Shown here one piece after another: positions 4,428 to 28,176 of a DNA stretch of 37,715 nucleotides. How positions within the stretch are numbered: position 1 is the stretch's first letter; the number at the start of each line of letters is the position of its first letter. Origin of the DNA: an uncultured Rhodospirillales bacterium (GTDB taxonomy: Bacteria > Pseudomonadota > Alphaproteobacteria > Acetobacterales > Acetobacteraceae); NCBI GenBank assembly GCA_903927465.1, contig CAIYMY010000085.1, positions 1 to 37,715 on the forward strand, given 5' to 3'. The notes beneath the pieces were generated by a model that was not told the DNA's origin, did no database searches, and was given only the letters and a program-made list of their open reading frames with translations. A program made the translations under genes and the position numbers.

Positions 4428-4454
4428 ATGAAGCGACGCCATCATGATGCGTGA
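4428..4454 (+). other. Eight-codon leader mini-ORF overlapping the MFS start
   Basis: ATG at 4428 opens a frame reading MKRRHHDA that stops at 4452-4454, inside the first codons of the MFS gene (ATG at 4444). The only good ribosome site here, GAGGA at 4415-4419, is correctly spaced for 4428 and lies 24 bases before 4444. The MFS frame itself has a TGA at 4429, so the MFS protein cannot begin earlier. This fits translational coupling, but may be chance. Confidence 0.3.
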
Positions 4455-5703
4455 CAGCCGCTTGGATGGCCGCGCTGCCTGGACGCGTTTGGCGATTGCG
4501 CTTCTGATTAGCATGATCGGCAGCGCGCCGATGTGGACCGTGGTGGTGGTGCTGCCCACCGTGCAAGCGGAATTCGGCACGCTGCGCGCTGGCGCTTCGC
4601 TTCCCTATACCATGACCATGGTGGGCTTCATGGTGGGTGGCGTGCTCATGGGCAAGCTGTCTGATCGCTTTGGCGTCATGGTGCCGGTGCTGATCGGCGC
4701 TACCTCCATCGGGCTTGGCGGCATCGCGACCTATTTTGCGCCGAGCCTTTTCACCTTCGGTCTTTCCTATGGTGTTTTGCTGAGCTGCTTTGGCGCGGCG
4801 GCGGTATTCAGCCCGCTGATTGCCGATGTCTCGCTATGGTTCGAAAAACGCCGCGGCATTGCCATGGCGCTGGCGGCTTCCGGCAATTATTTCGCCGGCG
4901 CTTTCTGGCCCACTTTGCTGCAATGGGGCATTTCCACGATCGGCTGGCGCCAGGCGCATCTGATCATGGGCATCGCGAGCTTCCTCACCATCGTCCCCCT
5001 TGCCCTGCTGTTGCGCACCCGCGCCCCCATGCCGGCAGTGGCCGCACCTGGCACCACCGCGCCCCGCAATCCCATGGCGCTGGGGCTTTCGCCGAATGTT
5101 TTGCAAACACTGATCATCCTGGCGGGGATCACCTGCTGCATCGCCATGGCCATGCCGCAGGTGCATATCGTCGCCTATTGCGTGGATCTTGGTTTTGGCG
5201 CGGCGCGCGGCGCGCAAATGCTCTCCGTCATGCTCGCCAGCGGTATCGCTTCGCGCCTGATATTCGGTTTCATCATGGACCGTATCGGTGGCGTGCGAAC
5301 GCTCGTGCTTTCATCCCTGCTGCAAGGCATCGCGCTGCTGCTGTTCCTGCCATCTGATGGGCTGATGGCGTTGTTCCTGGTGTCCTTCATGTTCGGCCTG
5401 TTCCAGGGTGGGCTGGTGCCCTGCTACGCCATGATTGTGCGCGAGAACTTCCCACCATCGCAGGCCGGTAGCCGAGTGGGCCTGGCACTGTCTTCAACCA
5501 TGGTTGGCATGGCCATTGGCGGATGGATGGCGGGCGCGCTGTTTGACGCGACCGGCGGCTATACGGCGGCGATGTGGAACGGGATTGCGTGGAACCTGGT
5601 TAATCTTTCCATCGCGCTTGGGCTGCTGTGGCGGCTTAGAGCATTTTCAAGCCGAGTGGTCTCACTTGGCGGCTCGGAAAATGCGACCCAAAAAAGGATT
5701 TAG
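4444..5703 (+). CDS. Major facilitator superfamily transporter with a repeat-derived C-terminal tail
   Basis: A 419-residue inner-membrane carrier with about 12 hydrophobic helices. The MFS motif between helices 2 and 3 is visible as GKLSDRFG, and a related loop in the second half reads GFIMDRIGG. No ATP-binding domain is present, so transport is driven by an ion gradient. Family members near catabolic genes usually import small organic acids; the preceding amidohydrolase supports that, but the substrate is unknown. The natural protein seems to end after helix 12 at LGLLWRLR. The last 20 residues (AFSSRVVSLGGSENATQKRI) are encoded mostly by a 50-bp palindromic repeat that also encodes the tail of the CrtN-like desaturase at 26.6 kb. 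Start is 4444, possibly 4447. Confidence 0.92.
   Translation: MMRDSRLDGRAAWTRLAIALLISMIGSAPMWTVVVVLPTVQAEFGTLRAGASLPYTMTMVGFMVGGVLMGKLSDRFGVMVPVLIGATSIGLGGIATYFAPSLFTFGLSYGVLLSCFGAAAVFSPLIADVSLWFEKRRGIAMALAASGNYFAGAFWPTLLQWGISTIGWRQAHLIMGIASFLTIVPLALLLRTRAPMPAVAAPGTTAPRNPMALGLSPNVLQTLIILAGITCCIAMAMPQVHIVAYCVDLGFGAARGAQMLSVMLASGIASRLIFGFIMDRIGGVRTLVLSSLLQGIALLLFLPSDGLMALFLVSFMFGLFQGGLVPCYAMIVRENFPPSQAGSRVGLALSSTMVGMAIGGWMAGALFDATGGYTAAMWNGIAWNLVNLSIALGLLWRLRAFSSRVVSLGGSENATQKRI
5639..5688 (+). repeat. Palindromic protein-coding repeat, copy A
   Basis: A 50-bp element starting GAGCATTTTCAAGCC and ending GGAAAATGCGACC. Outer arms GCATTTTC and GAAAATGC pair perfectly; inner arms AGCC/GGCT and GAGTG/CACTT continue the stem with a 3-base bulge and one wobble. 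It differs from copy B (26572-26621) at three positions only. It lies in frame at the 3' end of the MFS gene, encoding AFSSRVVSLGGSENAT. In copy B the A-T pair replaces the wobble, so the fold is kept. Confidence 0.85.
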
Positions 5704-5743
5704 TGCGTGTCCGGTGAACGAATGTGAACGGGACGCGCACTAA
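5700..5743. terminator. Hairpin over the MFS stop codon
   Basis: Arms at 5700-5712 (TTAGTGCGTGTCC) and 5731-5743 (GGACGCGCACTAA) pair over 13 bp with one G-T wobble. The 18-base loop holds a direct repeat, GTGAACG at 5714-5720 and 5724-5730. It covers the MFS stop and lies in the 86-base gap to the convergent lipocalin-like gene. There is no T-run, so it could be a bidirectional end signal or another mobile palindrome. Confidence 0.5.
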
Positions 5744-5789
5744 TCGTCGGCAGCAGGCTTTTGCGTGAACTTCTAAGAAGGCCCGCGCT

Positions 5790-6176
5790 TCAGCCGATCT
5801 TCTCCCAATACAATTCCAATTGCTGCATCGCGCCATCCACCATGCGCGCTGGCGGTTTCAGCCACACGCCCACGCCTTCCGCGCGTACCTGCCGCACCTG
5901 ATCACCACCGATGCGATCGGCCAGATTGCTGTCATCCACGCGGGTGATCAGCACCTGTCCATCGAAAGTGTAATTGCCGGTATAGCCAGACCAGAAGCGC
6001 TTCACGCCGGGCGGCAACACGGCGCGGCCATCACCCGTTGCAGCCTGCATGCGCTGCGGGCCGAATTGCACAATGCCGGTTGGCTCCGGCCCATATTGGT
6101 GATGCCCCAAGGGCTGGCTCGCCGCATCGGTCGCGCTCACGCGCAAAAGCTTCCAAGTACCAAGTAGGGAAATCAT
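5790..6176 (-). CDS. Lipocalin-like domain protein
   Basis: A small protein of 128 residues. The ATG at 6176 is preferred because AAGGACGG sits directly before it and the protein then opens [11 protein letters not shown], the usual beginning of the lipocalin-like (lipocalin_5 type) family; a longer frame to 6206 would run into the upstream gene. GTWKL near the start, [10 protein letters not shown] in the middle and a [10 protein letters not shown] segment suggest a short beta-barrel that could bind a hydrophobic ligand. No signal peptide is seen. It lies 10 bases after the stop of the GMC oxidoreductase on the same strand and is surely co-transcribed with it. Its role is unknown; binding of the oxidoreductase substrate is a guess. 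Confidence 0.8.
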
Positions 6177-16764: not shown

Positions 16765-17053
16765 CTTTGCCCCACACTTACGCCGGGTGATATCGTTATT
16801 CTCGATAACCTCTCCAGCCACAAATGGCCCGGCGTCAGGCAAGCCATTCGGGCAAGGGGGCTCGCCTACTGTTCCTTCCGCCCCACAGCCCCGACCTTAA
16901 TCCCATCGAGCAGGTCTTCGCAAAACTCAAACATCTGCTCCGAAAAGCTGCTGAACGGTCGGTCGAGGCAACGTGGAGACGTATCGGTTAGCTACTCGAT
17001 GCCTTCCCGCATCATGAGTGCGCCAATGATTTCAAAAATCTAAGGCACGGAGT
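16765..17053 (+). pseudogene. IS630-family transposase C-terminal remnant
   Basis: Translation from 16765 gives [20 protein letters not shown], the second-Asp region of the DDE transposase, followed by RQAIRARGL. Near 16862 the homology jumps to a +2 frame and continues [18 protein letters not shown] and [20 protein letters not shown], containing the catalytic Glu, then meets a TAG at 16989 where relatives have Gln, and ends DAFPHHECANDFKN. The N-terminal two thirds is missing, and no terminal inverted repeats were recognised. The remnant abuts the 3' end of the following minus-strand binding-protein gene. The rest of the 430-base gap (16643-16764) holds nothing recognisable. Confidence 0.85.
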
Positions 17054-26550: not shown

Positions 26551-28176
26551 TCAGTCACCAGCAGAATGTTTGGTCGCATTTTCCGAGCCACCAAGTGAGT
26601 CCACTTGGCTTGAAAATGCTCCAGCATTGGCCCGCATATGGCTTGGGCTGCGTTCGCTGCGCGCCATGCCCAAATCCTGCAATAATAAATCCGCGCTGAT
26701 GCGCGCACCTTCATAAATCACCGGCAAGCCACTGCCGGGATGCGTGCCGCCACCCACCAGGTACACGCCCTTGGCACGGCCAAAGCGATTGCGCGGGCGG
26801 AAATGCATCATCTGGCGCACATTATGCGCCAAGTTGAAGGTCGCCCCATAGCCGACTGCATAATCATCCTGCCACTCCTGCGGCGAGATGATTTTCTCAT
26901 ACCGAATACGGCTTTCGATATCATGCAAGCCAATCGCCTTCAGCCTATCCAGCGCAAGGCGCCGATAGCGCGGCGCTTCCACCGCCCAATCCGCACCGCC
27001 CAAAAGGTTCGGCACCGGCACCAGCATATACAATGTGGAATGCCCGGGCGGTGCCATGGAAGGGTCGGTACTGGCCGCGGCCTGCACATAAAGCGACGGA
27101 TTTTGCGGAATGATCCCTGCTTCGATCTGCGCCAGATTATTCTCATAATCTTCCGCAAGCAGCACGGTATGATGCGCCAGATCAAGCTGCCCTTCAATGC
27201 CTAGATAAAGCATGAAGGTGGAACAGGAATAACGCGCTTCGGCGATTTTCTTATCGGGCCATTGCGGGCGCTGTTCTTCTTCCATCAGCCCCGGAATGGC
27301 ATGCGCGAAATCGGCATTCACCACCACCGCATCCACCGCATGAAGCCGCCCGCCCGCTTCAACACCCACCGCGCGCCGGCCTTCAAAGACAATGCGATCA
27401 ATCTTGGTGTTCAGGCGGATATCCACGCCCACATTCTCGGCAACCCGCGCCATGGCTTCGGACACCATGCCGCACCCGCCGCGCGGATGAAACACGCCAT
27501 GTTCATATTCCAGGAAGGACAGGATGGAGAACATGCTCGGGCAGCGGAAGGGGCTCATGCCCAGGTATTTGGACTGGAAGGAAAATGCCAAGCGCGTGCG
27601 CGGGTCCGAGAAGTGTCTTTGCAATTCCTGATCCAGCGAAAGCCAGGGCCGCAGATGCTTGAGCCCATTCATCACTTCCGGCGCCAGATAGGTCATCACG
27701 CCAGGAAAGGGCCGTTCCAACACGGGGCGGAAGGCTTCCAGCTTCACGCGGTTTTCCGCCATGAAGCTGCGCACGCCCGCCGCATCAGCGGGATTGATCT
27801 TCGCCACTTCCGCTTCCATGCGCGCCAGATCAGGCGTCGCTTCAATGGAAACGGGATTGGCGCCTTCAAAGATCAGCCGATATTGCGGATCAAGGCGGAT
27901 CAGATCCACCTCATCCTCAAGCCGCGTGCCGCAGGCTTCGAAAATTTCCGCCAGGATGCGCGGATACAGGAAGAAAGTCGGCCCAATATCAAAGCGGTAG
28001 CCGCCAGGCGCCGTCACGGTGCGGGTCCGCCCGCCCACCACGGCATCCTTTTCGAATACCGTAACGCGCACGCCTGAGGAGGCCAGCAGCATAGCCGCAG
28101 CCAAGCCTCCGGGGCCGGCGCCGATCACGGCAACATGGGGGCGAGTTTGTGAGAGCGAGGGAGGTGATGCGTTCAT
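26551..28176 (-). CDS. CrtN-like squalene/dehydrosqualene desaturase with repeat-derived tail
   Basis: A 541-residue phytoene-desaturase-family flavoenzyme, first gene of the carotenoid operon. GAGPGGL (19-25) and VFEKDAVVGGRTRTV open the FAD domain; FDIGPTFFLYPRIL and the C-terminal GVYLVGGGTHPGSGLPVIYE are family marks. It probably inserts several double bonds into squalene or dehydrosqualene to give 4,4'-diaponeurosporene or diapolycopene. The native end seems to be near LLLQDLGMA. The extra tail includes AFSSQVDSLGGSENAT, encoded by copy B of the 50-bp palindromic repeat and nearly identical to the MFS transporter tail. The ATG has only a weak ribosome site (AAAGACAG region), unusual for the leading gene. 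Confidence 0.87.
   Translation of the reverse strand: MNASPPSLSQTRPHVAVIGAGPGGLAAAMLLASSGVRVTVFEKDAVVGGRTRTVTAPGGYRFDIGPTFFLYPRILAEIFEACGTRLEDEVDLIRLDPQYRLIFEGANPVSIEATPDLARMEAEVAKINPADAAGVRSFMAENRVKLEAFRPVLERPFPGVMTYLAPEVMNGLKHLRPWLSLDQELQRHFSDPRTRLAFSFQSKYLGMSPFRCPSMFSILSFLEYEHGVFHPRGGCGMVSEAMARVAENVGVDIRLNTKIDRIVFEGRRAVGVEAGGRLHAVDAVVVNADFAHAIPGLMEEEQRPQWPDKKIAEARYSCSTFMLYLGIEGQLDLAHHTVLLAEDYENNLAQIEAGIIPQNPSLYVQAAASTDPSMAPPGHSTLYMLVPVPNLLGGADWAVEAPRYRRLALDRLKAIGLHDIESRIRYEKIISPQEWQDDYAVGYGATFNLAHNVRQMMHFRPRNRFGRAKGVYLVGGGTHPGSGLPVIYEGARISADLLLQDLGMARSERSPSHMRANAGAFSSQVDSLGGSENATKHSAGD
26572..26621 (-). repeat. Palindromic protein-coding repeat, copy B
   Basis: Read on the minus strand, the 50 bases match copy A (5639-5688) except at three sites. 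Two keep or improve pairing: A for G in the inner left arm removes a wobble, and T for C lies in the bulge. The third is in the loop. The element is in the same reading frame as in copy A and encodes AFSSQVDSLGGSENAT near the end of the CrtN-like desaturase. No further copy was found by eye in this window. Confidence 0.85.

Follow-up and report, generated by a model that had tools for sequence, protein, structure and literature searches.

The window analysed here, a stretch of 37,715 nucleotides that corresponds to contig 85 of a 3.78-Mb draft genome (98.5% complete), contains two unrelated protein genes that end in the same peptide. The gene at 4444–5703 on the plus strand encodes an MFS transporter, as judged from its orthologues and from NCBIfam MFS matches that are all below cut-off, and the gene at 26551–28176 on the minus strand encodes a phytoene-desaturase-family protein of 541 amino acids (TIGR02734, 509 bits against a cut-off of 238). 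A 50-bp repeat is located at 5639–5688 (+) in the former and at 26572–26621 (−) in the latter. The two copies differ at exactly three bases, and in an automatic repeat search their match lengthens to 53 nt at 92%; when up to three mismatches are allowed, the window holds just these two 50-mers, and none appeared in 100 shuffles. Both genes read the repeat in one frame, giving the tail AFSSxVxSLGGSENAT, such that the MFS protein ends in ...AFSSRVVSLGGSENATQKRI and the desaturase in ...AFSSQVDSLGGSENATKHSAGD, each followed directly by the stop. The sense strands of the two copies fold into an identical two-part hairpin, with z-scores of −3.5 for the desaturase copy and −1.6 for the MFS copy, for which 11 of 200 shuffles folded equally well; on the opposite strand the z-scores are −3.6 and −3.8 for the MFS and desaturase copies, respectively. 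A sequence-only reading of the window had reported the two copies with their three differences, the common hairpin, and the common frame and tail in two unrelated proteins, and all of these are confirmed by window comparison together with the mismatch search, by folding, and by translation, respectively.

The same reading gave the extent of the repeat as 50 bp. Such a 50-mer exists, but the unit at the MFS gene is 102 bp long (5639–5740) and the insert at the desaturase gene about 63 bp (26559–26621). The complete two-arm element of the MFS gene end lies on the plus strand at 5639–5740, where BLAST alignments with the sister genomes G019, G014, and G007 break, and is composed of a first arm (P1) at 5639–5690, which is the repeat originally noted and matches the covariance model with 77.4 bits, an A-rich linker at 5691–5699, recognized by comparison of copies, and a second arm (P2) at 5700–5743, which was read from the sequence as TTAGTGCGTGTCC...GGGACGCGCACTAA and includes the right-hand TA at 5741–5742. 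The current MFS stop codon, TAG at 5701–5703, is supplied by the start of this second palindrome. On the left, a TA at 5637–5638 represents the target duplication by comparison with empty sites; on the right, the stretch at 5741–5768 starts with TA and continues with leftover codons of the former MFS C-terminus and its stop, which lie beyond the current stop and can be aligned with the empty sites of G019, G014, and G007.

In BLAST comparisons, the window aligns with these three sister genomes up to 5638 and resumes at 5741, while the relatives are contiguous, and the MFS site is empty in all three syntenic stretches. The junction reads ...CGGCTTAACCG... in G019 and ...CGGCTTA[GAGC...GCAC]TAATCG... 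in the window, with TA on both sides of the insert, and the last eight residues of the G019 form of the protein, NRRQQAFA, are replaced by 21 element-derived residues. None of the 16 MFS orthologues read, a set that includes L142, L143, G014, and G007 and leaves out L140, has the tail. Synteny of G019, G014, and G007 with the window stops after about 12.5 kb, the alignment of G005 reaches only 5639, and none of the stretches L240, L242, L244, and L246 aligns with the window. G005 carries an element-like copy in the opposite orientation (L241:6554–6605, also in L143) just downstream of the same MFS gene, which is apparently an independent insertion. A scan of 5500–5900, around the MFS copy, found no promoter- or terminator-like site.

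The desaturase copy consists of the first arm without the second. This arm is placed at 26570–26621 (−) by the mismatch search and the covariance model, and the whole in-frame insert, delimited by eye from the filled locus L060 and the empty locus L050, covers 63 bp at 26559–26621 (−). Empty orthologues from the same clade are 523 amino acids long, compared with 541 with the insert. Among the 25 orthologues read out of 80 loci, the tail is present in seven and absent from 18, nine of which come from outside the clade (L061–L065, L067–L069, L080), and a covariance-model search of all 80 loci places the element at the gene end in the same seven. Both filled and empty forms were thus obtained for the desaturase when orthologues were aligned with and without the tail, the MFS orthologues being empty, and because the tail is missing from distant orthologues it is not an ancestral protein feature. 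The arm in L060 is preceded by nine extra bases relative to the other filled desaturases, which fits one insertion and a subsequent in-frame loss of 9 bp. Single-arm copies show no TA duplication, and a CTG/CTGG repeat is found at L060; the desaturase copy, lacking its second arm, would persist as a frame-preserving single arm of 63 bp. A second, TA-flanked insertion is present upstream of the desaturase gene in four of 15 named loci (L047, L051, L053, L056) and absent from the other 11 and from the window. The best desaturase orthologues belong to metagenome genomes filed as Roseomonas sp., Alphaproteobacteria, Rhodospirillales, and, in two cases, Asaia bogorensis, followed by Roseomonas and Neoroseomonas strains; isolate names such as LacPavin and Loclat point to a clade that lives in lakes.

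Beyond the window, the repeat is present in high copy number. The exact outer-arm pattern, which is palindromic, so that each copy shows on both strands, occurs 112 times in the host genome. With a covariance model trained on 16 of the genome's own copies, the count rises to at least 150 copies in 110 clusters, with further copies in a search of 100 loci, so that the whole-genome search named beforehand as a test revealed a dispersed family and not two copies. Clusters contain runs of up to five copies and have a single orientation in all but one of the 110. Copies or arrays of the first arm are situated at contig ends in C35, C39, C63, C83, C110, C113, C155, and C211; such repeats probably break the assembly, and the copy number is therefore probably underestimated. 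The copies in C38 (L173) and C203 (L231) have an identical 26-bp upstream flank, which suggests that the region around the element may have been duplicated. Within a genus sample of 35 genomes, 19 contain from 43 to at least 99 matches, eight contain one to five, and eight contain none, and in the same search two of 24 genomes from other families match. In wider samples, which include the own genome and in which strict filters cause weak matches to be lost, 13 genomes out of 150 from the family and 12 out of 385 from the class match, with no more than 39 and 15 matches, respectively, counted per genome.

The layout varies among copies. Following the first arm, 45 of 150 copies have a second palindrome by a simple pattern (two of them doubtful by eye), 41 have another first arm, and 64 have neither, although several of these 64 show other hairpins. 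The first arm is 52 bp long and starts with GAGC, and the element ends are of the GAGCATTTTC type. Arm-level tallies are based on 146 of the 150 copies, four short ones being left out; the motif GANTC is in the loop of 62 of these and in the 3' part of 64, and is nowhere in the first arm of 53, including the MFS copy. TA is found on both sides at three clean sites, namely the MFS site, the site upstream of the desaturase gene, and C28:38775. At C64, C145, and C147, only the right-hand TA agrees with the empty site, and genome-wide the dinucleotide before the first arm is variable, often CG, TG, CT, or TT (108 of the 110 clusters, those with a full-length first copy). TA is consequently the best-supported target, but not the whole story.

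Pairing within the first arm is well preserved. In 118 distinct sequences, 97.8% of pair cells are standard, and eight of the 16 pairs include cells changed on both sides, 49 in all, where cells count copies and not events and the alignment was fitted to the model; none of 500 shuffles scored as high, nor did any slid register. The commonest change, from U-A to C-G in 26 sequences, may represent one subfamily. Because G-U cells (18) are about as numerous as A-C cells (17), there is no strand preference, and nothing singles out the sense RNA, as opposed to DNA or both strands, as the target of selection; selection on the sense RNA only is rejected, as there is no G-U excess. The proposal that substitutions keep the stem owing to structural selection is thus upheld in that two-sided changes maintain pairing, but not as far as the sense RNA is concerned.

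The position of copies relative to gene ends was determined using a codon-usage caller trained on 31 window genes, with which several tailed genes score low. In 21 of the 110 clusters, the gene upstream owes the end of its stop codon to the element, which contributes its first base (G) in 7 clusters and its first two (GA) in 14. Genes run into another 12 of the 110 clusters, ten in the AFSS frame; the two off-pattern genes are at C167:22714, where the gene ends a few residues in, and at C172, where an IS66 transposase gene is in another frame. At this last site (L225, 1501–1551), the first arm is inside the IS66-family transposase gene, which stays open for about 300 residues beyond it. Read in the three sense frames, 131, 137, and 143 of 146 first arms contain no stop codon, the highest count belonging to the AFSS frame. 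When rebuilt stops are included, the phases are 1, 24, and 8 of 33, whereas TA dinucleotides within the final 60 coding bases are distributed 40:76:68 (chi-square p 0.0007); since the stop mechanism influences the phase classes, the difference is no more than a hint of target bias together with removal of worse tails. The tabulation of position and frame, another test named beforehand, therefore yielded in-frame tails, with ten genes in one frame, but a completed stop (21/110) proved commoner than a run-in (12/110).

Grouped by neighbouring genes, 26 clusters are convergent, 9 divergent, 55 codirectional, and 20 unknown; the convergent excess over divergent clusters has a p of 0.006, and copies between codirectional genes face both ways about equally often (28 sense, 27 antisense). 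Many copies have a gene stop no more than about 10 bp away, on one side or the other. As read from the listed gene ends, eight genes that converge on the element have their TAG stop at the outer end of the second arm, and a similar protein end coded by the second arm, VHxxSxE, is found at C41:37987, C121, C157, and C163. The element overlaps a called gene antisense or at its start in C17, C82:5967, C102, and C163. Called genes contain TA 16 times per kb, against 18 per kb overall, and of 183 such genes only 84 terminate in TAA or TAG; these values rule out TA supply as the sole cause of stop-codon landings and make purging the likelier filter. The tailed proteins include RuvC (TIGR00228, 147 bits, cut-off 101) and the phytoene-desaturase-family protein, as well as proteins resembling UbiK, nicotinate phosphoribosyltransferase, and metal ABC permeases, each of which scores below its cut-off. 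The ruvC gene is at 1442–2044 (−) of C15 (L006), and its tail is present in the host and G007, and not in G012, G014, G019, and G031.

Comparison with sister species shows how these gene ends looked with and without the element. Sixteen sites, comprising eight with a tail and eight with a rebuilt stop, were compared with 70 orthologous loci from eight sister genomes (70 of 136 matches used), of which 24 are filled and 46 empty. An empty orthologue exists for 15 of the 16 sites, the exception being C184, with five of five filled. All eight tail sites have empty orthologues, and for six of them a further species carries the element too; outside the host species, in-frame tails are retained at C15, C45, C79, C81, C137, C46:20613, and the desaturase gene. 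At the seven rebuilt-stop sites with empty orthologues, the native stop is in the junction codon in 17 of 19 empty copies, while in the two exceptions (L315, L316) a TAA adjoins the junction one base out of register. At those sites, therefore, the element does not shorten the protein, but sits inside the stop codon and restores it, in contrast to the MFS gene, where it has replaced the protein end. Overall, the earlier idea that a dispersed palindromic element gave an in-frame tail near the C-termini of unrelated proteins is supported.

The repeat family called CIR (Chen and Shapiro, 2003), known from alphaproteobacteria, is described in the available portions of two articles as being about 110 bp long, with two inverted-repeat arms, a linker, GANTC at the loop, TA ends, and an unknown mechanism of mobility (PMC2229807; PMC10969869). 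In the portion available, the former article states that CIR was not found intragenically and has stops in all six frames (PMC2229807), and the latter, a 2024 review, calls it strictly intergenic (PMC10969869). The element described here is like CIR in its length of 102 bp at the MFS site, in its two arms and linker, and in its TA termini, which are on both sides at three clean sites, though variable before the first arm in the host; the GANTC-in-loop feature of CIR is seen in 62 of 146 own copies, 53 having none in the first arm. It is unlike CIR in that genes run into 12 of 110 clusters and the first arm is mostly open in the three sense frames. RIME1, reportedly described by Osteras in 1995 as a Rhizobium-specific intergenic mosaic element, presumably has a layout of two palindromes. 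The likeness to RIME1, going by its description, is a two-arm homologue on S. fredii pNGR234b, and the difference is that RIME1 is reported as Rhizobium-specific and intergenic. RIMEs are also termed intergenic repeats of rhizobia in the available part of PMC2573895.

The homologue was obtained in a distant blastn search of one two-arm copy against plasmids, which gave four records (S. fredii pNGR234b, two Novosphingobium, and one Sphingobium). The S. fredii match has 75% identity over positions 2–92 of the 121-nt query, and in the Novosphingobium and Sphingobium matches only the first arm is aligned. The own-copy model scores the S. fredii pNGR234b locus (L237) at 36 bits and a Novosphingobium plasmid at 67 bits, and the loci of both have GANTC in the loop and a second hairpin; a tblastn search of the tail peptide against plasmids led nowhere. 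By description, rather than by comparison with published sequences, the element appears to match the layout of CIR and probably that of RIME1. The assertion that the family is undescribed in this lineage fails, as the kind is already known in alphaproteobacteria (CIR, and probably RIME1) from the layout and from the homologues in Sinorhizobium and Novosphingobium. A limited literature search found no description of such repeats in Roseomonas, and the available portions of PMC1273637 and PMC2873474 contain no element sequence. No Rfam model matched the window at gathering score, and a known Rfam RNA is accordingly rejected.

Most copies of Rickettsia palindromic elements lie inside coding sequences. 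The present element resembles them in being palindromic and dispersed and in making in-frame additions to unrelated proteins (ten genes in one frame; empty orthologues at eight of eight tail sites), but differs in its two-arm layout with TA ends and in having run-in genes at only 12 of 110 clusters. It is RPE-like in effect, but not an RPE, and the likeness drawn in the sequence-only reading holds for the in-frame tails on unrelated proteins, but not for the kind of element, which is two-armed and CIR-like, nor for the frequency of run-in. The available portions of the CIR sources describe RPEs in genes at unusually high frequency, the 107-bp form of Correia/NEMIS, ERIC, RU-3, and YPAL as MITEs co-translated with or fused to genes, and QMITE2 as residing mostly in 3' untranslated regions (PMC2229807; PMC10969869). 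Those MITEs are likewise small non-autonomous repeats, some gene-fused or at gene ends, but they come from different bacteria and have different sequences, and no systematic stop-codon restoration is described for them in the same portions (PMC2229807; PMC10969869). GTAG REPs, small palindromes near gene 3' ends, often give neighbouring genes a TAG stop, according to the available part of PMC3733652. With these stops and the in-frame fusions of Correia, ERIC, RU-3, and RPE in print, each trick of the present element has a precedent elsewhere, and it is not the first such case outside Rickettsia.

We consider it probable, at roughly 0.83, that a non-autonomous mobile element of the CIR/RIME1 kind contributes the repeat as its first arm, which an A-rich linker and a second arm complete to about 102 bp, and that this element inserts at TA or similar dinucleotides; this estimate includes the tails and the purging. 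Its copy number is high, its sites are polymorphic between sister species, TA is present at the clean sites, and its arms are kept paired by double changes. It is overrepresented between convergent genes, stop codons in which it lies are restored by its first bases (G or GA), and genes that run into it do so nearly always in the AFSS frame. Insertion would be driven in trans at TA-like sites by an enzyme of another source, and harmful insertions within genes would be purged, so that the surviving copies would be those between genes, those in a stop codon that the element restores, and those a few codons upstream of one, where the added tail does no harm. The tail would be translated, without a function of its own. 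In other words, the element belongs to a kind of mobile DNA already known, and what is unusual is its habit of sitting at gene ends.

The gene-end habit might also suggest a domesticated 3'-end signal, in which the arms are bidirectional transcript-end or mRNA-stabilizing hairpins that are kept for this role and the tails are a by-product. The 26 convergent against 9 divergent clusters, the many copies with a gene stop no more than about 10 bp away on one side or the other, and the strong covarying stems are in keeping with this; however, 46 of 70 orthologous loci are empty, pairing shows no strand preference (18 G-U against 17 A-C), copies between codirectional genes are oriented either way alike (28 sense against 27 antisense), and the MFS copy, the one copy scanned, has no terminator-like match, so that we regard such a signal as rather unlikely. 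It is much less plausible that the tail spread among proteins because it is itself under selection as a protein feature, such as a degradation or localization tag. Ten genes do carry it in one frame, and it persists in frame in other species at the seven sites named above, but genes run into just 12 of 110 clusters, tail-free orthologues are common (31 empty against 11 filled) and exist for all eight tail sites, the carriers are unrelated (RuvC, desaturase, MFS, permease-like), and purging of worse frames along with target position could yield the frame bias.

Nor does a REP element moved by a RAYT transposase account for the repeat. REPs are palindromic, dispersed, and near gene 3' ends, as is the present element, and those of the GTAG type also often supply a stop codon, in the part of PMC3733652 available. 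That part further describes REPs as 20–40 bp long with tagged ends, links the GTAG type to RAYT, and reports CGTC REPs as missing in Acetobacteraceae (PMC3733652). In contrast, the present element is 102 bp long, its first arm of 52 bp begins with GAGC, its ends bear no GTAG or CGTC tag, and TA is on both sides at clean sites. Moreover, a search of the host genome for Y1/RAYT (PF01797) gave no match, compared with five positive genomes among 14 controls, and a REP/RAYT origin, which we hold to be very improbable, is rejected on this ground. A C-terminus common to the two genes by descent or recombination would explain the same tail in two proteins, but it is refuted by the empty sites in sister genomes; the at least 150 copies, most of them not run into by genes, and the distant orthologues without the tail leave it next to no probability.

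If the preferred reading of a CIR/RIME1-type mobile element is taken further, the element could be specialized in gene ends, its TA|G and T|GA termini restoring stops from either side and its AFSS frame making in-gene landings tolerable. Tentatively, and with rather less than even odds, it may thus be a stop-codon-homing, coding-compatible repeat that tagged ten proteins, including RuvC, in one Roseomonas-like genome; if true, a repeat class regarded as strictly intergenic would here be tagging proteins systematically, in the manner known from Rickettsia. Independently of this specialization, a repeat class called strictly intergenic reaches coding sequence, and the filled and empty orthologues at many sites constitute a natural experiment on small palindromes that alter protein and transcript ends. 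The junction pairs could, in addition, help to work out the mobility mechanism of CIR/RIME1.

Finally, some minor observations should be noted. The host has just two IS630-type fragments, one at the end of contig C172 and one in the window at 16842–16949 (+), a DDE_3 transposase fragment between two genes, and no ends matching those of the palindromic element were seen by eye. Neither these fragments nor the search for Y1/RAYT ties a transposase to the element. Among 15 copies from other lineages that were displayed, 10 have TA directly before the arm, several have a second hairpin, and four have GANTC in the loop. Five loci from other families of the class (L324, L328, L329, L330, L333) contain a related arm with a GCGAAGTGG...CCGGTTCGCG inner stem, a type common in rhizobia, and in all five the arm is located right after TA.
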